A program made the position numbers and the translations under genes. DNA of 56,634 nucleotides from contig JAFWES010000062.1 in the NCBI GenBank assembly GCA_017512805.1, forward strand, positions 1 to 56,634, read 5' to 3'. Positions 14,176 through 38,720 of the stretch are shown in pieces. Source of the DNA: Clostridia bacterium (GTDB lineage Bacteria; Bacillota; Clostridia; Christensenellales; Aristaeellaceae). Within the stretch, counting starts at the first letter, position 1. The number at the start of each line of letters is the position of its first letter. A model generated the notes under the pieces. The model saw nothing but the letters and a program-made list of their open reading frames with translations, was not told the origin of the DNA and searched no databases.

Positions 14176-14181
14176 ACGCTA

Positions 14182-14489
14182 AACCGTTGAAGAAGAGTGA
14201 GTACTTTCCCGGGTTATCCTTCACAGAGAGCCGTCGGCGGTGGAAAGGCGGTAAGGGTCGGAAAAGGAATGGACTTCTGAGGGCAAGCAGAAAAGGGGCT
14301 CTCCCGGAGGGCGCGCCTGAGTATGTGAGACGGAGCTGACCCTCCGTAATCAAAGGTTCGCGTATGAAGTACGTGATTCCGGGTTCCGTACGATGTACGC
14401 GGCAAGTGGGCGCGAAAGCGTCAAGCCGGGTGGCACCGCAGGTATGATGATTCAGACCTGTCCCAGCAAATCTCTGGGGCAGGTCTTTT
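14182..14489 (+). promoter_or_regulatory. T-box riboswitch, tryptophan-specific (UGG)
   Basis: The leader carries the T-box signature GGGTGGCACCGC at 14428-14439, followed by an intrinsic terminator (AGACCTGTCCCAG at 14454-14466 with CTGGGGCAGGTCT at 14473-14485, then TTTT). Stem I starts with GAAGAAGAGTGAGTAC and returns with GGAATGGACTTCTGA, so AGAAG pairs with CTTCT and the specifier bulge presents TGG (14270-14272) followed by A. UGG is the Trp codon. Uncharged tRNA-Trp should stabilise the antiterminator and switch on the downstream genes. The region between stem I and the T-box (about 150 bases) is longer than usual and holds further hairpins. Confidence 0.9.
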
Positions 14490-14609: not shown

Positions 14610-15152
14610 ATGATGTCGGAAAAGAGAGTGCTGAAGAACGAGGAGACCAAAGGGTTTTCCGTGCAGGACCTGATCATCGTGGCGGTGCTTCTGGCGGCCG
14701 GCGCGGTGCTGAAAATGTTCGTGGGGAGCGTGGTGAATTTCTTCGGCATGAAGCCAAACTTCACCATCGCGTCCTACTGCCTGGCCATTCTGCTGGTTCG
14801 GCCGAAGCTTCCCGGCTGCGCGATCATCGGGCTTCTGGCCGGGGCCATCTGTCAGTTCCTTCCGGGAACCCCGTGGCTGAATCTGATCTCAGAGCTGCTG
14901 GGAGCGGTGACCATGTTCTTCATGATGAAGGTGCCCTTTAAAGTGAAAAACACGGATCTGAATCCGCTGCTGGCGACCTTCGTCTCCACCGTCGTTTCCG
15001 GAGCCACGTATACGGTCTGCCTGTTTGTGCTGATGCACATGGAGACCAGCGGACTGGTCGCTTATATTCCCATCGTGCTGGGAACCGCGGCCATCGGAAG
15101 CGTGCTGGTTCAGCTGCTGTATCTGCCGCTGAAAAAGGTGCTGAACCGCTGA
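14610..15152 (+). CDS. trpP: TrpP-type ECF substrate-binding (S) component, probable tryptophan uptake
   Basis: About 180 residues with five to six hydrophobic helices and the FFGMKPNFTIASYCLAILL segment, which resembles the GMKP motif of the TrpP tryptophan-transporter family. S components bind the substrate in the membrane and dock on an EcfA-EcfA-EcfT energising module, encoded by the next three genes. Specificity is supported independently by the UGG T-box leader. Two consecutive ATGs (14610 and 14613) follow AGGAAGG; the spacing favours the second. Many Firmicutes share one Ecf module among several S components; here the module is operon-bound and probably dedicated. Tryptophan as the substrate is inference from motif and regulation. 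Confidence 0.85.
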   Translation: MMSEKRVLKNEETKGFSVQDLIIVAVLLAAGAVLKMFVGSVVNFFGMKPNFTIASYCLAILLVRPKLPGCAIIGLLAGAICQFLPGTPWLNLISELLGAVTMFFMMKVPFKVKNTDLNPLLATFVSTVVSGATYTVCLFVLMHMETSGLVAYIPIVLGTAAIGSVLVQLLYLPLKKVLNR

Positions 15153-17845: not shown

Positions 17846-18658
17846 TCAGCGTTTCCGAAGCCCGAAGGCGACGGCCGCGCAAACCGCGCCCGCCGCCGCC
17901 AGAGCGATTCCGACGGCCGGGGAGGCCAGGAGCGATTCCGGCAGCTTGTCCAGGAACTTGTCGCGCATCCAGTAAAAATACAGCTGCACCGCTCCGGCGC
18001 TCAGGAGCGTCAGCCCCGCCAGCTGCAGGATCACCTGCCCGTTGATCTTCATCTTCTCCGCGCCGGATCCGGTCATCCCCAGGCGGGAGAGCGCCGGCAC
18101 AGCCGCCCCCAGGAACAGGATCAGCAGCACCGATTCAAAGGGGAAGAGCATCAGGTTTTTCACGATCCGGGGCAGGTCAAACCAGGCGTACCCCTTCCCC
18201 ATCGCTACCCTGTAGTACAGCACCATGATCGGGGTCTGCAGGATGATGTTGACGAAAAAATTGACGCAGAACCGGGACAGGATTACCCGCCCGGGGGTCA
18301 GCTTCGCCCGGTACAGCACCAGCGCGAACACCAGGCCTCCCGCCGCCTCCGTGAGGATGAACCCGGGAAAATAGACCCCGGAGGGCGCGATCAGGTATCC
18401 CAGGGTATCCGACAACACGCCGCTGAAGGCCGCCAGCACGGGCCCGCAGACCATGGCGCCCAGCGCCGTGACAAAAAACTGCACGTTGATGTTCAGGGAC
18501 GGGCCAATCGGAATTTTCACCGTTTTCAGCGCCAGCCGCAGGGCCAGCATCAGCGCGGCGAATACCAGCATCCGTACGTCCCTGATCTCCCGGCAGGCAT
18601 CCCGCCAGTAGGCCCGGGAAAAGGGATGGGAATACAGCGTCTTCGATCTTCCGGACAT
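17846..18658 (-). CDS. folT: ECF S component, folate type (FolT)
   Basis: A 270-residue membrane protein. Residues 30-190 match the folate-type S component: RMLVFAALMLALRLALK, then IPIGPSLNINVQFFVTALGA, a GPVLAAFSGVLSDTLGYL helix and SGVYFPGFILTEA. About 80 further residues add one or two C-terminal helices beyond the usual size, of unclear role. Folate specificity is supported by the tetrahydrofolate riboswitch immediately upstream. No Ecf module is encoded next to it, so it probably uses a shared or the neighbouring EcfAAT complex. An AAAGGAGG site eight bases before the ATG lies within a hairpin (18665-18704). Confidence 0.88.
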   Translation of the reverse strand: MSGRSKTLYSHPFSRAYWRDACREIRDVRMLVFAALMLALRLALKTVKIPIGPSLNINVQFFVTALGAMVCGPVLAAFSGVLSDTLGYLIAPSGVYFPGFILTEAAGGLVFALVLYRAKLTPGRVILSRFCVNFFVNIILQTPIMVLYYRVAMGKGYAWFDLPRIVKNLMLFPFESVLLILFLGAAVPALSRLGMTGSGAEKMKINGQVILQLAGLTLLSAGAVQLYFYWMRDKFLDKLPESLLASPAVGIALAAAGAVCAAVAFGLRKR

Positions 18659-18704: not shown

Positions 18705-18730
18705 TACAAAGACTTCCTCTTTATGGAAAT

Positions 18731-18825
18731 CAGCGGGTGCGGGCCCGTAACCGCGGCGTCTGCCTTCGTCCTCCGTTCAACTCCCCGTTCCGGAAGCACT
18801 TCACGCTGCGGGCCCTACTCTGACG
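18731..18825 (-). promoter_or_regulatory. Tetrahydrofolate riboswitch upstream of folT
   Basis: The minus strand shows, in order, the conserved elements of the class I THF aptamer: CAGAGTAGG, GCGTGAAGTG, ACGGGGAGTTG, GACGAAGGCAGACGCCGCGG and GGGCCCGCACCCGCTG. The helix ends GGCCCG/CGGGCC and CAG/CTG pair. Binding of reduced folate should reduce expression of the transporter through the RBS hairpin just downstream. Confidence 0.85.
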
Positions 18826-18905: not shown

Positions 18906-18943
18906 CTCTCATTGTTTTTTCCCTGTATTCCGCTCCCGGAGGC

Positions 18944-18972
18944 TTGCGTTCGGAGCCGACGGGTGATAGAAT
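18944..18972 (+). promoter_or_regulatory. Promoter of the aro operon
   Basis: TTGCGT (18944-18949), a 17-base spacer and TAGAAT (18967-18972), 45 bases before the leader peptide. Confidence 0.6.
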
Positions 18973-19016
18973 ACCCGCAGATTTCAGGCGCGGGTGCGCC
19001 GGAAAGGAGTCGGGAC

Positions 19017-19082
19017 ATGCGCAGCGGCCGTACCTTCGGGTTTGCTTTTACCTTTACCTTTTTTACGCTGATGGCGGGGTAA
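19017..19082 (+). CDS. Phe-rich leader peptide of the aro operon
   Basis: A 21-codon reading frame with a good Shine-Dalgarno site (GGAAAGGAG, seven to eight bases upstream) encodes MRSGRTFGFAFTFTFF followed by TLMAG. Six of its 21 residues are phenylalanine, clustered at positions 7-16, exactly as in classical attenuation leaders. It stops 44 bases before a strong terminator that precedes the DAHP synthase gene. It should have no function except to measure charged tRNA-Phe by ribosome stalling. It was recognised by reading the sequence, being far below normal gene size. Confidence 0.85.
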   Translation: MRSGRTFGFAFTFTFFTLMAG

Positions 19083-19161
19083 GGGTATTTTGCCGCACTG
19101 TTTTTTCCCGGCAAAAGGGAGTTTACAGGGTCCGCAGAAATACCTGCGGGCCCTGTTTTTA
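19083..19161 (+). promoter_or_regulatory. Attenuator (terminator/antiterminator) before aroF
   Basis: The terminator is a 12-bp stem, CAGGGTCCGCAG (19126-19137) with CTGCGGGCCCTG (19144-19155), loop AAATAC, followed by five T. GGTATTT (19084-19090), just after the leader stop codon, is complementary to AAATACC (19138-19144) in the loop and start of the second arm, so it can act as antiterminator. A ribosome stalled on the Phe codons would leave it free; one finishing at the stop codon would cover it. Confidence 0.75.
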
Positions 19162-19259
19162 TGACGGATCGCCGGGGTTTGGAAAAAGGCTGGCGCAAAA
19201 GGGTTGGCGTAAACGGCCCGCCGCGCGGCGGCCGCGACAAAGGAAGGAGTTTCGAAAGC

Positions 19260-20279
19260 ATGATTATCTCTCTGAAACGGGATGTCCGCCGGGAGGACCG
19301 GGAGCATCTGCTCTCCTGGCTGGAAACCCAGGGGGTCTCCGCCCAGATCGTGGAAGGCCAGTACCAAACGGTGATCGGACTGGTGGGCGATACCGCCCAC
19401 ATCAATATGGATCTCATCTCCGGGATGGACATCGTGGAGAGCGTCATGCGCATCTCCGAGCCCTACAAAAAAGCCAACCGGAAGTTTCACCCTGACGATT
19501 CCGTCATCCGGATCCGGGAGGGCGTAGCCTTCGGCGGCGGCGAGTTTGAAATCATCGCCGGACCCTGCTCCGTGGAATCTGACGCCCAGATGGAAACCAT
19601 CGCCCAGGCCGTGAAGGCCAGCGGGGCCGGGGTGCTGCGGGGCGGCGCCTTCAAGCCCCGGACCTCCCCCTACGACTTTCAGGGGCTGCACGAGGAGGGC
19701 ATGCGCATCCTGAAGGAAGTCCGCCGCCGCACGGGCATGCCCATCATTACGGAAATCATGAACATCATCCACCTGCCCCTGTTCGAGGAGGTGGACATCA
19801 TCCAGGTCGGCGCCCGCAATATGCAGAACTTCGACCTGCTCAAGGAGCTGGGCAGGATCGACAAGCCCATTCTCCTGAAGCGGGGGCTGGCCAACAGCCT
19901 GAAGGAGCTGCTCATGAGCGCCGAGTACATCATGGCCGGCGGCAATGAGCGGGTGATCCTCTGCGAGCGGGGAGTCCGCACCTTCGAAACCGCCACCCGC
20001 AACACGCTGGATCTTTCCGCGGTGGCGGTGCTGCACGATCTGACCCATCTGCCCGTGGTGGTGGATCCCAGCCATGCCACCGGGGTGGCCCGCTACGTGA
20101 AGCCCATGGCTCTGGCCGCGGCGGCCGCCGGAGCGGACGGGCTGATGGTCGAGGTTCATAACGACCCGCCCCGGGCCCTGTGTGACGGGCCCCAGTCCCT
20201 GACGCCGGAGCAGTTTGACGATGTGGCCCGGGCGGTTCGGAAGGTACGGGCCGCCCTGGTTCCGGACGCGGAGGGCTGA
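19260..20279 (+). CDS. aroF: DAHP synthase with regulatory N-terminal domain (type I-beta)
   Basis: A 339-residue 3-deoxy-7-phosphoheptulonate synthase, the first shikimate-pathway enzyme, condensing phosphoenolpyruvate with erythrose 4-phosphate. Residues 1-70 form the ferredoxin-like regulatory domain of the I-beta class, and the TIM barrel follows with IIAGPCSVES, KPRTSPYDFQG, KRGLANSLKE and VVDPSHATG, which supply substrate and metal ligands. The start at 19260 begins MIISLKRDVRRED and follows AAGGAAGGAG; an earlier in-frame ATG at 19161 lies right after the attenuator T run and adds no known sequence. It is the first structural gene of the operon, with aroB three bases behind. Confidence 0.93.
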   Translation: MIISLKRDVRREDREHLLSWLETQGVSAQIVEGQYQTVIGLVGDTAHINMDLISGMDIVESVMRISEPYKKANRKFHPDDSVIRIREGVAFGGGEFEIIAGPCSVESDAQMETIAQAVKASGAGVLRGGAFKPRTSPYDFQGLHEEGMRILKEVRRRTGMPIITEIMNIIHLPLFEEVDIIQVGARNMQNFDLLKELGRIDKPILLKRGLANSLKELLMSAEYIMAGGNERVILCERGVRTFETATRNTLDLSAVAVLHDLTHLPVVVDPSHATGVARYVKPMALAAAAAGADGLMVEVHNDPPRALCDGPQSLTPEQFDDVARAVRKVRAALVPDAEG

Positions 20280-20282
20280 ACC

Positions 20283-21359
20283 ATGAAAAGCATTGAGGTG
20301 CGCACCGGCGTCCCATACCGGGTGCTGATCGGGAACGGTCTGCTGCGGGAAGCGGGGGCCCGGTGCCCGGAGGTGCTCCGGGGCCGGCATGTCATGATCG
20401 TTTCGGATGAACGGGTGGCTCCCCTGTATCTGGCGGAGGTGTCCGAAGGCTTTGAAAAAGCCGGTTTCCGGGTTTCCTCCTTCGTCTTTCCTGAAGGGGA
20501 AGGCGCCAAGCGCCTCTCCACCGTGGAGCGCCTGCTGGACGAAGCGGACGCCGCCGGCCTGACCCGCTCCGACGCCTTTGTCTCCCTGGGCGGAGGAGTG
20601 GTCTGCGATCTGACGGGGCTGGCCGCCGCCCTTTACCTGCGGGGGGTGGATTTCATCCAGATTCCCACCACCCTGCTGGCCATGGCGGACGCCTCCGTGG
20701 GCGGCAAAACCGCCGTCAATCTGCGGGGGGGAAAGAACCTTTGCGGCGCGTTTCACCAGCCCCGGCTGGTGCTGTGCGACCCCGCCGCGCTGGCGACGCT
20801 GGCCCCCGCGGTGTACGCCGAGGGCATGGCGGAGGTCATCAAGCACGGGGCCCTGGGCGGCGGGACAGTGTTGGACCTGCTGCGGAGTGGGGCATCCATG
20901 GAGGATCTGATCGCGGAAAACGTCCGGATCAAGAGCGATATCGTCGCCCGGGATGAGCATGAGCAGCATCTCCGGCAGCTGCTGAACCTGGGTCACACCT
21001 TCGGCCATGCGGTGGAAAAGCTCTCCGGCTTCTCCATTTATCACGGGGAGGGGGTCAGCATCGGCATGATGATCGCGTCCTGGGCCGCCGTCAGCGCCGG
21101 ACAGTGTCCCAGGGAAGTGTGTCAGGAATTGCGGGATCTTCTTCAGGAGCAGCGGCTCCCGGTCAGCACCCGGTATACCGCCCGGGAAATCGCCGCCGCC
21201 GCCATGAACGACAAAAAGCGCCGGGGGGACCGGATCACCGTCGTGCTGCCCCAGGCCCGGGGAAGCTGCCGGCTGGTCACCCTCCCTGCGGCCGAGCTGG
21301 AAAGCCTGATTGCCCCCTGCGACGGAGTAATGACCGGCATCACGGAACGGAGCGTGTAA
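20283..21359 (+). CDS. aroB: 3-dehydroquinate synthase
   Basis: A 358-residue AroB, which converts DAHP to 3-dehydroquinate using NAD and a divalent metal. The NAD-binding signature is SLGGGVVCDLTGLAA, followed by IPTTLLAMADASVGGKTAVN, and the metal ligands are supplied by the Glu of AEVIKHG and the histidines in NLGHTFGHAVE and the following IYHGEGVSIGM. Length and motif order are normal. It lies three bases downstream of aroF and five bases upstream of aroA, so the three are tightly coupled. Confidence 0.94.
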   Translation: MKSIEVRTGVPYRVLIGNGLLREAGARCPEVLRGRHVMIVSDERVAPLYLAEVSEGFEKAGFRVSSFVFPEGEGAKRLSTVERLLDEADAAGLTRSDAFVSLGGGVVCDLTGLAAALYLRGVDFIQIPTTLLAMADASVGGKTAVNLRGGKNLCGAFHQPRLVLCDPAALATLAPAVYAEGMAEVIKHGALGGGTVLDLLRSGASMEDLIAENVRIKSDIVARDEHEQHLRQLLNLGHTFGHAVEKLSGFSIYHGEGVSIGMMIASWAAVSAGQCPREVCQELRDLLQEQRLPVSTRYTAREIAAAAMNDKKRRGDRITVVLPQARGSCRLVTLPAAELESLIAPCDGVMTGITERSV

Positions 21360-21364
21360 GACAT

Positions 21365-22657
21365 ATGACAGGAATCATCGAACCGGGTTCCCTGAGCGGA
21401 ACGCTGGAGGGGATCATGCCCTCCAAATCCCAGGCCCACCGTCTGCTGATCTGCGCCGCGCTGGCGGATCAGCCTACCCGCGTGCTGCGGGTGCCGCCCT
21501 CCCGTGACGCGGAAGCCACCTGCCGCTGCCTGCGGGCCCTTGGCGCGGAACTGAAGGCCGACGGCGAAGCCCTTACGGTCCATCCCGTCAGCGGCACCAG
21601 GCGGGAAAAAGCGCTTCTGGATTGCGAAGAAAGCGGATCCACCCTGCGGTTCCTGCTCCCGGTGGCCGCGGCCCTGGAAGCGGACTGCGCCTTTACCGGC
21701 CGGGGAAAGCTCTCTCAGCGGCCCCTGGAACCGCTGTATTCGGAGCTGGCCGCCCATGGGGCCGTGCTTTCGCCAGAGGGCTCCTTCCCCCTGCGCTGCG
21801 GAGGAACGCTGCGGCCGGGGACATACCGTCTGGCTGGGAACGTCTCCTCCCAGTTTATCAGCGGCCTGATGCTGGCGCTGCCCCTGCTGGAGGGGGAAAG
21901 CGAGATCCGGATCACCGGCCCCCTGGAGTCCGCTCCCTATGTGGACATGACCCTGCAGGCCCTCCGGCTCTTCGGCGTCCGCTGGCAGCGGGAGGCGTCC
22001 GCGGCCCCGGACGAGTCCCTGGTATTCCGTCTGCCCGGCGGTCAGCGCTATCGTTCCCCCGGGGAGGTCGCTGTGGAAGCGGACTGGTCCGGCGCCGCCT
22101 TCTTCCTGGCGGCAGGCGCCCTGAGCGGGGAGGGAATCCGTTTGCGTGGATTGAATCCGGACTCCGCCCAGGGGGATCGGGAGATCCTTCCCCTGCTCCG
22201 GGCCTTCGGCGCGCAGGTTCAATCGGATTTCTCGTCCGTGCTGTGCCGCTTTGCCCCGCTGCGGGGCATCGACATCGACGCCGCGGACATCCCGGATCTG
22301 GTGCCGGTGCTCGCGGCGGTCGCCGCTCATGCCCGGGGCGACACCCGCATTCGCAGCATCCGCCGGCTCCGCCTGAAGGAATCGGACCGGGTGGCCTCCG
22401 TCCTGGCCATGATCCGCGGCCTGGGCGGCCAGGTGGACGCCGGGGAAAACGAAATGATCATCCGCGGGCGGGGCGGTCTTCCCGGCGGCCGGGTGGACGC
22501 TTTCCGGGATCACCGGATCGTCATGGCCGCCGCCGTCGCCGCCTCCCGGGCCGACGGGTCCTCCGAAATATCCGGCATCGAGGCGGCAGATAAATCCTGG
22601 CCCGGCTTCTTTGACCGGTGGCAGGAACTGGGCGGACAGTTTTCCTGCGTCCCCTGA
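21365..22657 (+). CDS. aroA: EPSP synthase (3-phosphoshikimate 1-carboxyvinyltransferase)
   Basis: A 430-residue EPSP synthase starting MTGIIEPGSLSGTLEG at 21365; the open frame extends further upstream only as an overlap with aroB. Visible motifs include PSKSQAHRLLICAALA (substrate-binding Lys and Ser), ESGSTLRFLLPVA (the LxxGNxGT counterpart, here CEESGSTLRF), SSQFISGLMLALP, and the C-terminal RLRLKESDRV and FRDHRIVMA. The N-terminal SGSTLRF pattern is that of class II-like (Gram-positive) enzymes, which are often less sensitive to glyphosate; this is family knowledge, not tested. It is third in the operon. Confidence 0.93.
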   Translation: MTGIIEPGSLSGTLEGIMPSKSQAHRLLICAALADQPTRVLRVPPSRDAEATCRCLRALGAELKADGEALTVHPVSGTRREKALLDCEESGSTLRFLLPVAAALEADCAFTGRGKLSQRPLEPLYSELAAHGAVLSPEGSFPLRCGGTLRPGTYRLAGNVSSQFISGLMLALPLLEGESEIRITGPLESAPYVDMTLQALRLFGVRWQREASAAPDESLVFRLPGGQRYRSPGEVAVEADWSGAAFFLAAGALSGEGIRLRGLNPDSAQGDREILPLLRAFGAQVQSDFSSVLCRFAPLRGIDIDAADIPDLVPVLAAVAAHARGDTRIRSIRRLRLKESDRVASVLAMIRGLGGQVDAGENEMIIRGRGGLPGGRVDAFRDHRIVMAAAVAASRADGSSEISGIEAADKSWPGFFDRWQELGGQFSCVP

Positions 22658-22708: not shown

Positions 22709-23779
22709 ATGCGATTTCAGGGAAAGAAGCTGACCGTTCAGGTCTTCGGCCAGTCCCACGGGGAAGCCATCGGCGCAGTCATTGACGGGCTCCCCGCCGG
22801 CGTCCGGGTGGATCAGGAGCGGCTAAATGCCTTGATGCGCCGCCGGGCGCCGGGGCAGGGCGCCCATACCACCGCCCGCAGGGAGCCAGATATCCCGGAG
22901 TTCGTCAGCGGGCTGGCGGACGGAATATCCTGCGGCGCGCCGGTGACGGTCCTGATCCGGAACCGGGACGCCCGCAGCGGTGATTACGCTTCCCTGCGGG
23001 ATATTCCCCGCCCCTCCCATGCCGACTGGCCCGCCTTCGTCAAATACGGCCCGGCCCATGACGGGCGGGGCGGCGGCGTCTTTTCCGGCCGGCTGACCGC
23101 TCCGCTGTGCGCCGCCGGCGCCATCGCCCTGCAAATGCTGGCGGACAGGCAGGTCTTCGTAGGCGCTCATATCGCCGAAATCGCCGGCATCCCGGACGAT
23201 CCGTTCGATCCCGTCGGCCTGAAGCCGGAGGATCTGGCGGCCCCCGGGCAAAAGAGCTTCCCCGTCTGTTCTGACGGAGCCGGCGCCGAAATGCTTTCCG
23301 CCATCGAAGACGCCCGCAGGGACGGGGATTCCGTCGGCGGGGTGGTGGAATGCGCTTCGCTGGGCCTTCCCGTCGGGCTGGGCGGACCCCTCTTCGAAGG
23401 GCTGGAAAGCGCGCTGGCCTCGGCCCTCTTCGCCATTCCCGCCGTCCGGGGCGTCAGCTTCGGGAAGGGCTTCGAAGCCGCCCGCATGCGCGGCTCCGCC
23501 CACAACGATCCCCTTCTTGTGGCGGACGGGAGGATCGTCACCTCCACCAACCGGGCGGGCGGCCTCCAGGGCGGCATGACCAACGGCATGCCCCTGCTGG
23601 TCAACGTGGCCTTCAAACCCACCCCCTCCATCGCCCTGCCCCAGCGCAGCGTCAGCCTTTCCCGCATGCAGCCCGCGGAGCTAATCATCTCCGGCCGCCA
23701 CGATCCCTGCGTAGTCCCCCGGGCCGTGCCCGTGGTGGAGAGCATGGTCGCCCTGGTGCTGCTGGATCAGCTGCTGTAA
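22709..23779 (+). CDS. aroC: Chorismate synthase
   Basis: A 356-residue chorismate synthase, which converts EPSP to chorismate with reduced FMN. Signatures are FGQSHGEAIGAVIDGLPAG (catalytic His), RRAPGQGAHTTARREPD, DGRGGGVFSGRLTAPLCAAG and the C-terminal RHDPCVVPRAVPVVE. An AGAGGAGG site precedes the ATG at a normal distance. The 50-base gap after aroA contains a fragment of a dispersed repeat, so expression is probably still from the operon promoter. Confidence 0.94.
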   Translation: MRFQGKKLTVQVFGQSHGEAIGAVIDGLPAGVRVDQERLNALMRRRAPGQGAHTTARREPDIPEFVSGLADGISCGAPVTVLIRNRDARSGDYASLRDIPRPSHADWPAFVKYGPAHDGRGGGVFSGRLTAPLCAAGAIALQMLADRQVFVGAHIAEIAGIPDDPFDPVGLKPEDLAAPGQKSFPVCSDGAGAEMLSAIEDARRDGDSVGGVVECASLGLPVGLGGPLFEGLESALASALFAIPAVRGVSFGKGFEAARMRGSAHNDPLLVADGRIVTSTNRAGGLQGGMTNGMPLLVNVAFKPTPSIALPQRSVSLSRMQPAELIISGRHDPCVVPRAVPVVESMVALVLLDQLL

Positions 23780-23816: not shown

Positions 23817-24962
23817 ATGAACCGGATCGAAGAACTTCGGAAAGAAATCGACACCATCGACAGCGGTATCGTGGACCTGTACCGCCGCCGCATGGACGTG
23901 GCCCATTCCATCGGCCAGTACAAACGGGAGCACGGGATTCCCGTCAGCGATCCCGGCCGGGAGCGGGCGCTGCTGAACCGGCTGGGCGAAGCCGCCGGCC
24001 CGGAGCATGAATATGGGGTGCGGGCGCTGTTCAACCTGCTCCTGTCCCAGAGCCGGGCCTCCCAGCTGCTGGATCAGCGCCCCGTCAGCCCGCTGGGGGA
24101 GAGCATCCGCGGCGCCCTGCGCGATACGCCCCCTCTCTTTCCGCCCAAAGCCGTCGTGGCCTGCCAGGGGCTGGAAGGCGCCTATTCCCAGATCGCCTGC
24201 GAAAAGTTGTTCTCCGCCCCCTCCATCATGTACTTCCGCCAGTTCGACCACGTCTTCGACGCAGTGGATTCCGGCCTCTGCCGGTACGGGATTCTTCCCA
24301 TCGAAAACAGCCTGGCCGGATCCGTCTCCAGCGTCTATGATTCCATGCGCCGGCACCGCTTCTTCATCGTCCGGTCCGTGCGGGTGAAGATCGACCATAC
24401 CCTGCTGGCCCTGCCCGGCGCCGCCATGGAGGACATCCGGGAGGTTTATTCCCATCAGCAGGCCATCATGCAGTGCTCCCGCTTCCTGGCGGATCACCCG
24501 TCCTGGCAGGTTCATGTCTGCGAAAACACCGCCATGGCCGCCCGCACGGTGGCGGAAAGCGGCCGCAAGGATATCGCCGCCATCTCCTCCGTGGCCTGCG
24601 CCGCCCTCTACGGGCTGAACTGTGTCGCCCGGGATATCCAGAACAATCCCAATAACCATACCCGTTTTATCTGTATCGCCCGGCAGCCGGAGATCTATCC
24701 CGGCGCCGACCATACCAGCCTCATGCTCTCCCTGCCGGATAAGCCCGGCTCCCTCTACGAGCTGCTGGGCCGGTTCAGCGCGCAGGGCATCAACCTGACC
24801 CGGCTGGAAAGCAGGCCCATTCCGGGACAGGATTTCGAGTTCATGTTCTATTTTGAATTTGAATCCTCCGTCTATTCCCCCCAGTTCACCCGGCTGATGG
24901 AGGAGCTGTCCGCCACCCTGGAGCAGTTCAGCTATCTGGGCAGCTATTCGGAAATCGTCTGA
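23817..24962 (+). CDS. pheA: Bifunctional chorismate mutase / prephenate dehydratase
   Basis: A 381-residue P-protein. Residues 1-85 are an AroQ-type chorismate mutase (LRKEIDTIDSGIVDLYRRRM, QYKREHGIPV). About 105-285 form prephenate dehydratase (CQGLEGAYSQIACEKLF, PIENSLAGSV, and the NNHTRFICIA motif with the conserved Thr-Arg-Phe). About 295-380 form an ACT domain with GSLYELLGRFSAQGINLTRL and ESRP, the Phe-binding segment. The protein leads from chorismate to phenylpyruvate and should be feedback-inhibited by Phe. Its place in the operon explains the Phe-specific leader peptide. AAAGGAG precedes the start. Confidence 0.94.
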   Translation: MNRIEELRKEIDTIDSGIVDLYRRRMDVAHSIGQYKREHGIPVSDPGRERALLNRLGEAAGPEHEYGVRALFNLLLSQSRASQLLDQRPVSPLGESIRGALRDTPPLFPPKAVVACQGLEGAYSQIACEKLFSAPSIMYFRQFDHVFDAVDSGLCRYGILPIENSLAGSVSSVYDSMRRHRFFIVRSVRVKIDHTLLALPGAAMEDIREVYSHQQAIMQCSRFLADHPSWQVHVCENTAMAARTVAESGRKDIAAISSVACAALYGLNCVARDIQNNPNNHTRFICIARQPEIYPGADHTSLMLSLPDKPGSLYELLGRFSAQGINLTRLESRPIPGQDFEFMFYFEFESSVYSPQFTRLMEELSATLEQFSYLGSYSEIV

Positions 24963-24984: not shown

Positions 24985-26247
24985 ATGATGAATGCCGTTT
25001 CATCCGACGAACGCTTCGGTCTCCTGGGGGAAACGCTGTCCCACAGCTTTTCGCCGGAGATTCACCGGGCGCTCTGCGGCTACGATTACGAGCTGCTGCC
25101 CATGGCCCCCGACCAGGTGCCGGAGTTCCTGCGCCGCAGGCCTTTCCGGGGGATCAACGTCACCATTCCCTACAAGCAGGCCGTGATTCCCTGTCTGGAC
25201 GCCCTGTCCGACCGGGCCCGGGCCCTCGGGGCGGTGAACACCATCGTGAAAGGCCCGGACGGCCGCCTGACGGGATACAATACCGACTACGCCGGCTTCA
25301 TGGCCATGCTGAACCGGATGAATCCGGATCTTCGGGGCCGGAAATGTCTGGTGCTGGGCAGCGGCGGCGCCAGCCACACGGCGGTGGCCTGCCTGCGGGA
25401 AAAAGGCGCCGGGGAGGTGGTGGTCATCTCCCGCCGGGGCCCGGATCACTATGGGAACCTTTCCCGCCACCGGGACGCATATCTGCTGGTCAACGCCACC
25501 CCCGTGGGCATGTATCCGCATAACGGAGATCAGCCCGTCAGCCTGGAGGCCTTTCCCTCCCTGGGCGGCGTGCTGGACCTGATCTACAACCCCGCCCAGA
25601 CCGCCCTGCTCCTGGAGGCCCGGCGCCGGGGAATCCCCGGAATGAACGGCCTGCTGATGCTGGTCGCCCAGGCCCGGGAAGCCGCGCAGCTCTTCACGGG
25701 GCGCGATATTCCGCTCTCCGAGGTGGACCGGGTGACCGCCCTGCTGGAGGCTCAGTCCCGGAACCTGATCCTCATCGGCATGCCCGGCTCCGGAAAGAGC
25801 ACCGTCGGCCGGCTCCTGGCCGAGCGGACCGGCCGGGCCTGGCTGGATACGGACGCCATGATCGAGGAGGCCGCGGGCGGCGTCTCCTGCGGGGACCTGA
25901 TCCGCGCGGAAGGGGAAGCGGCCTTCCGGCAAAAAGAAACCGCCGCCCTGCGGGACGCCGGAAAGCAAAGCGGGCGCGTCATCTCCGTCGGAGGCGGCGC
26001 GGTGACCCGCCCGGAAAACCTGGACCTTCTGCGGCAGAACGGCTGGCTGATTCACCTGGACCGCCCCCTGGGCGCCCTGTCCCTGGAGGGGGACCGGCCC
26101 CTGTCCGCGGATCGGGACGCCCTGGCGAAACGTTACGCCGAACGCAGGCCCCTCTACGAAGCCTGGCGGGACCTGGCGGTCTCCGCGCCCACCCCCGGGG
26201 AAGCCGCGGAACAGATCCTGGCCTGGCTGAACAAAAGAAAACCATAA
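24985..26247 (+). CDS. aroEK: Shikimate dehydrogenase-shikimate kinase fusion
   Basis: A 420-residue fusion of two pathway steps. Residues 1-255 are shikimate dehydrogenase: GETLSHSFSPEIH, INVTIPYK (catalytic Lys), GYNTDYAGF (catalytic Asp) and the NADP loop LGSGGASHTAVACL. From about residue 260 shikimate kinase begins with LILIGMPGSGKST (Lys271 in Walker A), DTDAMIEE, FRQKE and VGGGAV. The two are joined without a long linker. Both reactions are successive (dehydroshikimate to shikimate to shikimate 3-phosphate), so the fusion could channel the intermediate. GGGAGGG precedes a double ATG at 24985/24988. Confidence 0.93.
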   Translation: MMNAVSSDERFGLLGETLSHSFSPEIHRALCGYDYELLPMAPDQVPEFLRRRPFRGINVTIPYKQAVIPCLDALSDRARALGAVNTIVKGPDGRLTGYNTDYAGFMAMLNRMNPDLRGRKCLVLGSGGASHTAVACLREKGAGEVVVISRRGPDHYGNLSRHRDAYLLVNATPVGMYPHNGDQPVSLEAFPSLGGVLDLIYNPAQTALLLEARRRGIPGMNGLLMLVAQAREAAQLFTGRDIPLSEVDRVTALLEAQSRNLILIGMPGSGKSTVGRLLAERTGRAWLDTDAMIEEAAGGVSCGDLIRAEGEAAFRQKETAALRDAGKQSGRVISVGGGAVTRPENLDLLRQNGWLIHLDRPLGALSLEGDRPLSADRDALAKRYAERRPLYEAWRDLAVSAPTPGEAAEQILAWLNKRKP

Positions 26248-26346: not shown

Positions 26347-26778
26347 ATGAAAATTCTTGTTCTCAACGGGCCCAACCTGAATATGCTGGGCATCCGGGAG
26401 CCCGCCATTTACGGCAGCGGCACCTATGACAGCCTCTGCGGCATGATTTTGCGCCGGGCCGATGAACTGCATGTGGAGGTTGCCTTCTTCCAGTCCAACA
26501 GCGAGGGCGATCTGGTCACCCGCATCCAGCAGGCCTACGGCCGGGAGGACGCCATCATCATCAACCCCGCCGCCTACACCCATACCAGCATCGCCATCCT
26601 GGACGCGCTCAAAGCCGTGGGGCTCCCCGCCGCCGAGGTGCATATCAGCGATGTCAACCAGCGGGAGCCCTTCCGCCGGATCTCCTATGCCGGCATGGCC
26701 TGTGAGCTGCATTACATCGGCATGGGCTTTGACGGCTACCTCCGCGCCCTGGAGGACCTGGCGGCGAAATACGGCTGA
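26347..26778 (+). CDS. aroQ: Type II 3-dehydroquinate dehydratase
   Basis: A 143-residue type II dehydroquinase, which converts 3-dehydroquinate to dehydroshikimate. Family motifs are NGPNLNMLGIREPAIYG (with the catalytic Tyr), FQSNSEGDLVTRIQQA, IINPAAYTHTSIAILDA and EVHISDVNQREPFR with the general acid His just after. The start follows ATCAGGAG. It completes the set aroF, B, Q, E, K, A, C. A dispersed repeat lies in the 100-base gap from aroEK. Confidence 0.94.
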   Translation: MKILVLNGPNLNMLGIREPAIYGSGTYDSLCGMILRRADELHVEVAFFQSNSEGDLVTRIQQAYGREDAIIINPAAYTHTSIAILDALKAVGLPAAEVHISDVNQREPFRRISYAGMACELHYIGMGFDGYLRALEDLAAKYG

Positions 26779-37747: not shown

Positions 37748-38720
37748 GCACGGAACGCTGCTGGAGGTTCAGGACCTGAAGCAGTATTTTGACATCAACA
37801 TGGGCTTCTTCCGCTCCAGGCCCCTGAAGGCGGTGGACGGGGTTTCCTTCTCCATCCGGAAAGGGGAAACCCTGGGCCTGGTGGGAGAATCCGGCTGCGG
37901 CAAGACCACGGTGGGGCGCTCCATCCTGCACCTGTATCAGCCCACCGGCGGAAAGGTGATCTATGACGGGAAGGAAATCGGAGACCGGGCGAGCCTGAAG
38001 GAATTCCGCAAAAAGGCCACCATGGTTTTTCAGGATCCCTATTCCTCGCTGAACCCCCGCATGACGGTGTCCGACATCGTGGCCGAACCCCTGGATGTGC
38101 ACGGCCTTTGCAAGAACAAGGCGGAGCGGAACGACCGGGTGCTGGAGCTGCTGGGGTATGTGGGGCTCAACAGCGAGCACGCTTCCCGCTACGCCCATGA
38201 GTTTTCCGGCGGCCAGCGCCAGCGCATCGGCATCGCCCGGGCCCTGGCGGTGAATCCGGAATTCATCGTATGCGACGAGCCGGTCTCCGCCCTGGATGTA
38301 TCCATCCAGGCCCAGGTGATCAATATGTTTGACGAACTGCAGGAGCAGCTGGGCCTGACTTATCTGTTCATCGCCCATGACCTGCTGGTGGTGCGGCATA
38401 TTTCCGACCGAATCGCCGTGATGTATCTGGGCAAGATGGTCGAACTGGCGGACGCAGAGGAAATCTACAGGCGTCCCCTGCACCCCTATTCCCGTTCCCT
38501 TCTGAGCGCGGTGCCCCTGCCGGATCCGAAAAAGGCCCGGGCCAACAAGCGCATCATGCTCTCCGGGGATATCCCCAGCCCGCTGAACGCCCCCTCCGGC
38601 TGCCCCTTCCGCACCCGCTGCCCCCATGCGTCGGACGTCTGCGCGGGGAGCATGCCGGAATTCAAAGAGGTGGAGACAGGGCATTTCGTCGCCTGCCACC
38701 GGCTGGCGGAGATCGGCTGA
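37740..38720 (+). CDS. oppF: Oligopeptide ABC transporter ATPase OppF
   Basis: A 326-residue ATPase forming a heterodimer with Opp[13 protein letters not shown] at the start, Walker [22 protein letters not shown], signature [15 protein letters not shown], Walker [15 protein letters not shown], switch FIAHDLLVV. The C terminus carries [14 protein letters not shown], like OppD. A GGAGACGGAGAGC stretch within oppD supplies the RBS. Confidence 0.93.

Follow-up and report, generated by a model that had tools for sequence, protein, structure and literature searches.

Background

What decides whether a member of the Clostridia transcribes its shikimate genes when these are preceded by a tiny open reading frame (ORF) crowded with phenylalanine (Phe) codons and by a terminator? 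The question is raised by the window, i.e. the whole stretch of 56,634 nucleotides analysed here, in which both elements lie directly upstream of aroF. Leader-peptide attenuation is a textbook mechanism, and in the pheL/pheA system of Escherichia coli a leader peptide with Phe codons, alternative hairpins and an intrinsic terminator are found before a Phe-pathway gene. T-box leaders, which respond to uncharged tRNA and act on a terminator, are common in Firmicutes.

Leader peptides for other amino acids have been recorded in Gram-positive bacteria. His-leader attenuators of amino acid genes occur in Gram-positives including Eubacteriales (PMC9413887, PMC2965389); they share the leader-peptide mechanism with the element studied here but use histidine codons and serve other genes. 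Leader-peptide attenuation in Staphylococcus aureus likewise involves a different amino acid, the attenuator peptide being rich in leucine and belonging to branched-chain genes (PMC5794164). The Leu/phe leader of Lactococcus lactis (RF01743) is, by its name, a Phe leader in Firmicutes (PMC2864571). The closest description found is that of the uORFC-13-1 motif, a predicted upstream ORF with at least one Phe codon and a terminator before aroF, represented by 24 sequences from Acholeplasma and environmental DNA (PMC8632094); in the available part of that report neither Tyr codons nor a link with operon content is described, and the two elements were compared by description only. A search of the open-access literature, with subscription papers and preprints outside its scope, revealed no family of Phe/Tyr leaders before Clostridia aroF and no link of such leaders with tyrA. 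In this study, the leader was analysed in the window, in its genus and in wider samples of Clostridia, and the tiny Phe-rich frame and its hairpins most likely sense Phe shortage, as far as sequence analysis can tell.

Results and discussion

Leader ORF and terminator upstream of aroF

The elements of the leader are listed below.

18944..18972, + strand: promoter-like sequence TTGCGT-17-TAGAAT, with TG one base before the second hexamer (read by eye)
19003..19009, + strand: Shine-Dalgarno-like AAAGGAG, seven bases upstream of the leader ORF
19017..19082, + strand: leader peptide ORF, MRSGRTFGFAFTFTFFTLMAG-stop (translation; shuffles; homologous Tyr/Phe ORFs in 10 genus relatives)
19049..19058, + strand: region 1, Phe-codon segment of the protector helix 1:2 (folding; duplex energy -14.6 kcal/mol)
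19078..19093, + strand: region 2, holding TAA 19080-19082; partner of region 1 (through 19078-19087) or of region 3 (through 19083-19093)
19134..19145, + strand: region 3, upper 5' arm and loop of the terminator, antiterminator partner of region 2 (duplex energy)
19125..19160, + strand: intrinsic terminator (3:4), stem 19125-19156 and T run to 19160 (terminator scan; folding)

The ORF comprises 21 codons followed by TAA, and Phe occupies codons 7, 9, 11, 13, 15 and 16, i.e. six positions within codons 7-16 (19035-19064). The first-pass annotation, made from the letters alone, had singled out this frame together with its ribosome-binding site, and both are borne out by the translation, by the AAAGGAG motif and by shuffling: when the 400 nt ahead of aroF were shuffled 5000 times with dinucleotides preserved, 7 of the results held a short ORF with six or more Phe within ten codons. 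TTT accounts for five of the six Phe codons, as compared with 35 TTT versus 79 TTC in nine neighbouring genes (Fisher p 0.015). The promoter-like sequence at 18944-18972 was not reported by a consensus scan of the window; a similar sequence occurs at the equivalent place in the aligned genus relatives, L009 being the most divergent. Use of this promoter and translation of 19017-19082 are predictions only.

The terminator that had been noted behind the frame is also present, with 13 pairs rather than 12, of which 9 are G-C, a loop of 6 and the T run; folded alone, the hairpin reaches -26 kcal/mol (z -7.1). The features that define the attenuator class are found here, namely a short translatable ORF that is rich in codons for the pathway amino acid and has a Shine-Dalgarno-like site, an intrinsic terminator ahead of the first gene, aroF, and mutually exclusive 1:2, 2:3 and 3:4 pairings that overlap codons and stop and co-vary in relatives. 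With respect to the Rfam families of similar name, the window scored 14.4 bits (E 8.4) against the Phe_leader model (RF01859), whose gathering score is 55, and was unmatched by RF01743 both at the gathering score and with permissive settings.

Downstream gene cluster and aromatic pathway

The genes that follow the terminator were assigned as listed below, in agreement with the earlier placement of the leader ahead of a cluster running from aroF to pheA.

19260..20279, + strand: aroF, DAHP synthase with N-terminal ferredoxin-like domain
20283..21359, + strand: aroB, 3-dehydroquinate synthase
21353..22657, + strand: aroA, EPSP synthase (start codon not fixed)
22709..23779, + strand: aroC, chorismate synthase
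23817..24962, + strand: pheA, chorismate mutase - prephenate dehydratase - ACT
24985..26247, + strand: aroE-aroK fusion, shikimate dehydrogenase - shikimate kinase
26347..26778, + strand: aroQ, type II 3-dehydroquinate dehydratase

Both main domains of the aroE-aroK fusion reach their Pfam cut-offs, and its best NCBIfam rows lie below cut-off. From their spacing and order, the seven genes aroF-aroB-aroA-aroC-pheA-aroEK-aroQ would form one transcription unit. The leader shares its Phe-codon peptide, alternative hairpins and terminator with the pheL/pheA attenuator of enteric bacteria; it differs in heading a whole shikimate cluster that begins with aroF and in having relatives that carry Tyr/Phe peptides.

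In the window, aroF is followed by aroB and the leader contains no Tyr codon. Prephenate dehydrogenase (tyrA) was not found by family search of the window's own genome, which is 88% complete, and a protein search of the same 88%-complete assembly with a relative's sequence gave a best E of 0.085. Nor was TrpC detected in this 88%-complete genome, and its TrpB-like gene scored 149.9 bits, under the trpB cut-off of 392.45. Because of the 88% completeness each absence (tyrA, trpC) is weak when taken alone; the place that tyrA would take after aroF is itself present in the window and is occupied by aroB. All in all, Phe would seem to be the sole aromatic amino acid that this genome derives from chorismate, and it is also the only one that the leader samples.

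Outside the aroF cluster, the same genome holds a second prephenate dehydratase gene on contig C82 (L002 841-2313). The separate protein of 490 residues has the prephenate dehydratase domain as its sole Pfam match (residues 221-400), preceded by about 220 residues, with no match to chorismate mutase or ACT.

Alternative pairings and proposed mechanism

The arrangement in the window is the classical one of 1:2, 2:3 and 3:4 helices. When 19024-19166 was folded, the Phe-codon stretch was paired with the stop-codon region and the terminator was kept (z -4.2; 0 of 200 shuffles equally stable). In the 1:2 pairing, which the first-pass annotation had not mentioned, the Phe codons at 19049-19058 pair with the stop-codon region at 19078-19087. 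As for the 2:3 pairing, the complementarity between GGTATTT and AAATACC that had been pointed out earlier is present within a longer duplex, the best one (-11.3 kcal/mol) joining 19083-19093 with 19134-19145 by 11 pairs that flank a single bulged base. When the window is taken by itself, this duplex was not better than shuffles (z +0.99), so that its support comes from the relatives. An additional local hairpin is predicted within region 2 and the adjacent stretch.

The ORF, the terminator, the alternative pairings, their conservation and the statistics are results of computation, and from them we infer stalling and readthrough as follows. When Phe is plentiful, a ribosome would read the 21-codon leader to the TAA inside region 2 and mask this region, whereupon the 3:4 terminator would halt transcription. 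If charged tRNA-Phe runs low, the ribosome would stall in the Phe run over region 1 and leave region 2 free; the latter could then pair with region 3, and RNA polymerase would read through into the aroF cluster. Counted from the first base of the final Phe codon (19062-19064), the pairing region starts 16 nt downstream, so a ribosome stalled on that codon would leave this start at or beyond its edge. If the leader is not translated, the 1:2 helix should hold region 2, and termination is expected. Since the terminator (-26 kcal/mol) is far stabler than the 2:3 pairing (about -11 kcal/mol), antitermination must be kinetic. The earlier proposal that a ribosome stalled on Phe codons frees the antiterminator region thus finds support in the placement of the exclusive pairings, and the mechanism as a whole may be called well supported as a computational prediction.

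The leader in genus relatives

A total of 45 genomes of the genus were searched, 26 of which contain aroF (the window's own genome included), and the leader element was found in 11 of these 26, window included. Each of the other ten leaders mixes 3-6 Tyr codons with 1-4 Phe codons (MRQAFVYYYYYFTFTKTV, MLRSFYFGFYYFTLVL and MAQFNGFAYYYYFTFMKK are examples), and the gaps within the aligned leader ORFs are 3 and 6 nt. In all ten of these relatives the aroF match is followed, at a distance of 48 to 196 nt, by the start of a prephenate dehydrogenase domain. No aromatic leader was found in the remaining 15 aroF genomes of the genus, and as tyrA follows aroF in 7 of these 15, the leader is not obligatory. 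In one genus member (L017 / L037), a family-like terminator (GGAGAGCTCGCAG...CTGCGGGCTCTCC) lies upstream of aroF with no aromatic-rich ORF found before it; this is possibly a degenerate leader.

The pairing regions were aligned for 10 of the 11 genus sequences, L013 being omitted as nearly identical to L011. The window and L020 share one type of regions 1, 2 and 3 (UACCUUUACC, in L020 UACCUUUGCC; GGUAAGGGUAUUUUGC; GCAGAAAUACC), the common type of the genus reads UUACUUUACC (one with U), GGUAAGGUAAUUUUGC and GCAGAAUUAC, and L028 has a third type of regions 2 and 3. Window-type region 1 pairs with its own region 2 at -14.6 and -15.4 kcal/mol and at -10.2 to -11.1 when swapped; the corresponding values for common-type region 1 are -10.6 to -13.5 and -9.3 to -11.7. 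For the 2:3 pairing, region 2 of the window gives -11.3 with its own region 3 and -9.0 to -9.8 when swapped, and L028-type region 2 gives -14.6 and -8.8 to -11.1, respectively. The opposite case was also met, region 3 of the window pairing with the common region 2 (-12.1 to -12.5) slightly better than with its own (-11.3). Co-variation is thus clear for 1:2; for 2:3 it is equally clear in L028, and in the window it holds in one direction only. A comparison of leaders among relatives had been suggested for this locus with conservation of the Phe codons and of both hairpins in mind; the element itself, with co-varying pairing, does recur in ten other genus genomes, but the Phe-rich frame is not kept there, its place being taken by the mixed frames, which make Tyr plus Phe the probable ancestral signal.

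Aromatic leaders before aroF beyond the genus

In a scan of named genomes, the best 80 loci of at least 587 confirmed relatives were read, and a short ORF with at least 4 aromatic residues in 10 codons was found at 70 of the 79 best loci that had enough upstream sequence. A class sample contained aroF in 277 of 391 genomes, of which the best-scoring places (127 loci) were read. Genus loci, best loci from named genomes and these 127 loci were pooled to 230 upstreams, after three upstreams under 190 nt had been dropped; the pool leans to AroF proteins similar to those of this genus and counts the window twice (also as L115) and three genomes twice (L035/L036/L037 = L004/L005/L017).

Of the 230 upstreams, 152 had at least six F/Y/W residues within 10 codons, a density reached by 21 of 1150 shuffled sequences and by 9 of the 230 upstreams when read in antisense; with the threshold raised to seven, 119 upstreams remained against 1 shuffle and 2 antisense readings. 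The records are mostly titled Clostridia, Oscillospiraceae or Lachnospiraceae, with some metagenome bins labelled, as deposited, e.g. Treponema or Lentisphaerae. Peptide-coupled attenuation had been called unusual for this lineage; the 152 leaders, together with the leader peptides for other amino acids already in print for Firmicutes, do not support that judgement. The findings also correct the assumption that this kind of control falls, in Clostridia, to T-boxes or proteins.

Identical peptides, two leaders short of downstream sequence and a doubtful ORF (L187) were dropped from the sets used for pairing and regression. A recognisable terminator was present in 143 of 146 distinct leaders, and in these 143 the stretch around the leader stop was complementary to the 5' arm and loop of the terminator (mean z -1.7, Wilcoxon p 8e-19; 61 below z -2 and 0 above 2), while in a control with stretches taken from other leaders the mean z was -1.07, with 32 below -2 and 1 above 2. 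In the 61 best leaders the last aromatic codon, counted from its first base, lies a median of 22 nt (10-90%: 17-44) ahead of the start of the pairing, a spacing fitting a ribosome shadow. A Shine-Dalgarno-like motif precedes the chosen start codon in 122 of 147 leaders, and the peptide sequence is not conserved apart from the aromatic residues. The window leader, which could be aligned with six and then with nine genus relatives, has the characters of this Clostridia group of Phe/Tyr aroF leaders, namely an aromatic ORF, complementarity of stop region and terminator, and a position directly before aroF. Trp occurs within the dense stretch of 23 of the 152 leaders (L207, L208, L211, L221, L214, L228 and others; e.g. 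MFWGFYFSA...), suggesting that some Clostridia leaders sample F, Y and W three ways.

Short ORFs and terminators do arise by chance, and in T-rich sequence a Phe-rich frame might stand beside an ordinary or constitutive terminator without sensing Phe at all, as the failure of the window's 2:3 pairing to exceed shuffles would allow; yet so dense a frame was rare among shuffles, such ORFs stand in two thirds of the sampled aroF upstreams (152/230), and the frame is kept in ten relatives through length changes of 3 and 6 nt with its aromatic codons, which together make coincidence extremely improbable. That a T-box, a ligand-binding riboswitch or a protein-bound leader controls the terminator, with the peptide secondary, would suit a genome with six T-box-like matches (all below the Rfam gathering score) and a tetrahydrofolate (THF) riboswitch next door to the leader. 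Against this, no Rfam family reached its gathering score in the leader, a permissive search gave only four matches (E 2.5-8.4), and the pairing involves the codons and the stop codon themselves, so we regard such control as very improbable. Leader translation can also affect the access of Rho, and coupled translation, Rho-dependent polarity or an action of the peptide might operate instead of an RNA switch at the terminator; we give this little credence in view of the strong intrinsic terminator and of the complementarity that links the stop region to the 5' arm of the terminator throughout the family, peptide action being further disfavoured by the lack of sequence conservation beyond the aromatic residues. 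With high confidence, although from sequence comparison, we take the element to be a ribosome-mediated attenuator that senses charged tRNA-Phe, the Phe-only member of a Clostridia aroF leader family that normally mixes Tyr and Phe.

Codon mix and tyrA

Among the 152 leaders, tyrA follows aroF in 117 and does not in 33, with 2 unjudged. The Tyr share of the dense stretch was 0.51 in 114 distinct leaders with tyrA next and 0.26 in 31 without (p 4.5e-11, L187 still being counted in this comparison and removed from the regression). Tyr-free stretches numbered 0 of 114 with tyrA next and 6 of 31 without, the doubtful L187 being one of the six. In a phylogenetic regression on the AroF tree with 144 leaders, the effect of tyrA was +0.22 (p 6e-9 at the best lambda of 0.78; p 3e-5 at lambda 1), and it was unchanged when GC content was added (t 7.9 vs -0.2 for GC). 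Adjacency of tyrA is a noisy label, because G112 and G212 have aroF-tyrA further along what is possibly the same operon.

Five leader-bearing genomes of the class sample, window included, were scored as lacking tyrA from a list drawn up by hand, and their Tyr shares of 0, 0.33, 0, 0 and 0.17 compare with a mean of 0.46 in 72 other genomes (p 7.5e-4); two further genomes scored without prephenate dehydrogenase had no leader. For six leaders pheA is the next recognised gene; in the dense stretch, three of these leaders are Tyr-free (L155, L160 and L264) and three contain one or two Tyr (L239, L240 and L265). In L155 and L160 (genomes G186 and G414) aroF is directly followed by pheA and the leader is Phe-only, MNARFFNGFF(D/G)FSFF; the other aroF copy of these genomes is without such a leader. 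In the six genomes from which two aroF copies were fetched, the leader was present on one copy or none, which limits the value of such paralogues as a within-genome control.

A held-out test was made on 84 further upstreams from a phylum sample, with the prediction fixed beforehand. At least 6 aromatics in 10 codons were found in 23 of 84 upstreams against 0 of 84 antisense readings, and the Tyr share was 0.41 in 18 distinct leaders with tyrA next and 0.28 in 4 without (one-sided p 0.14); the result pointed in the predicted direction with too few cases and was not significant. The strict form of the prediction, that no Tyr-free stretch stands beside tyrA, failed at face value, 2 of the 18 being Tyr-free; the two exceptions, with GTG or TTG starts, look like chance ORFs, a judgement made afterwards.

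In the window, the Tyr codons were probably lost together with tyrA, and the comparisons suggest that the sensed amino acid was retuned from Tyr plus Phe to Phe alone; this order of events is one that we infer, and such retuning is moderately supported. The mechanism could be right and the loss of Tyr codons nevertheless be a matter of drift or lineage history, unrelated to the loss of tyrA. The genus offers a single clear event, the held-out sample was non-significant with its two exceptions, and G118, a 79% complete genome scored without tyrA, retains Tyr codons (share 0.33). The regression over 144 leaders, the low Tyr of the five tyrA-lacking genomes and the Phe-only leaders of G186 and G414, where pheA follows aroF, argue the other way, and we consider drift a possible but doubtful explanation. 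As to retuning across the class, it seems reasonably probable that a widespread, unnamed Clostridia family exists in which one leader samples Tyr and Phe and the mix is retuned to the remaining end products of the operon: Tyr plus Phe with tyrA, Phe-dominated without it, and Phe-only where pheA follows aroF in some genomes or where tyrA and the Trp branch are gone. The leaders would then form a natural series of one RNA switch whose input has apparently been altered one codon at a time while branches of the pathway were retained or dropped, so that the rewiring of amino acid specificity in an attenuator becomes directly testable with ready-made natural variants. From a leader peptide of this kind it may also be possible to predict the aromatic amino acids for whose synthesis an uncultured gut bacterium uses the operon in question.

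Neighbouring RNA elements

T-box leaders, unlike the leader of the window, involve no peptide, and with E values of up to 10 allowed, the T-box model (RF00230) matched nothing in 18940-19270; T-box-like elements do occur elsewhere in this genome, where they seem to serve other genes, Phe being left to a leader peptide. One T-box-like leader lies at 14178-14468 (+) of the window (68.7 bits, gathering score 93, E 6.3e-15) and precedes a TrpP-type tryptophan transporter gene (14610-15152), its specifier being UGG (Trp) by eye. A second one, with UGG at the same place, is found on contig C74 at 38232-38483 (L031 1501-1752), just before the TrpB-like gene (C74:38779-39819) whose score fell short of the trpB cut-off; TrpC being undetected, this gene may serve indole salvage. 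At L031 1126-1303 (-) the glycine-GGAnGA riboswitch family matched with 65.7 bits, its gathering score of 110 not being reached. The THF riboswitch at 18729-18824 (-) of the window (81.2 bits) precedes a folate-family ECF transporter S gene (17846-18658, -), a unit divergent from the aroF leader, and three kinds of RNA control are thus gathered within 5 kb.
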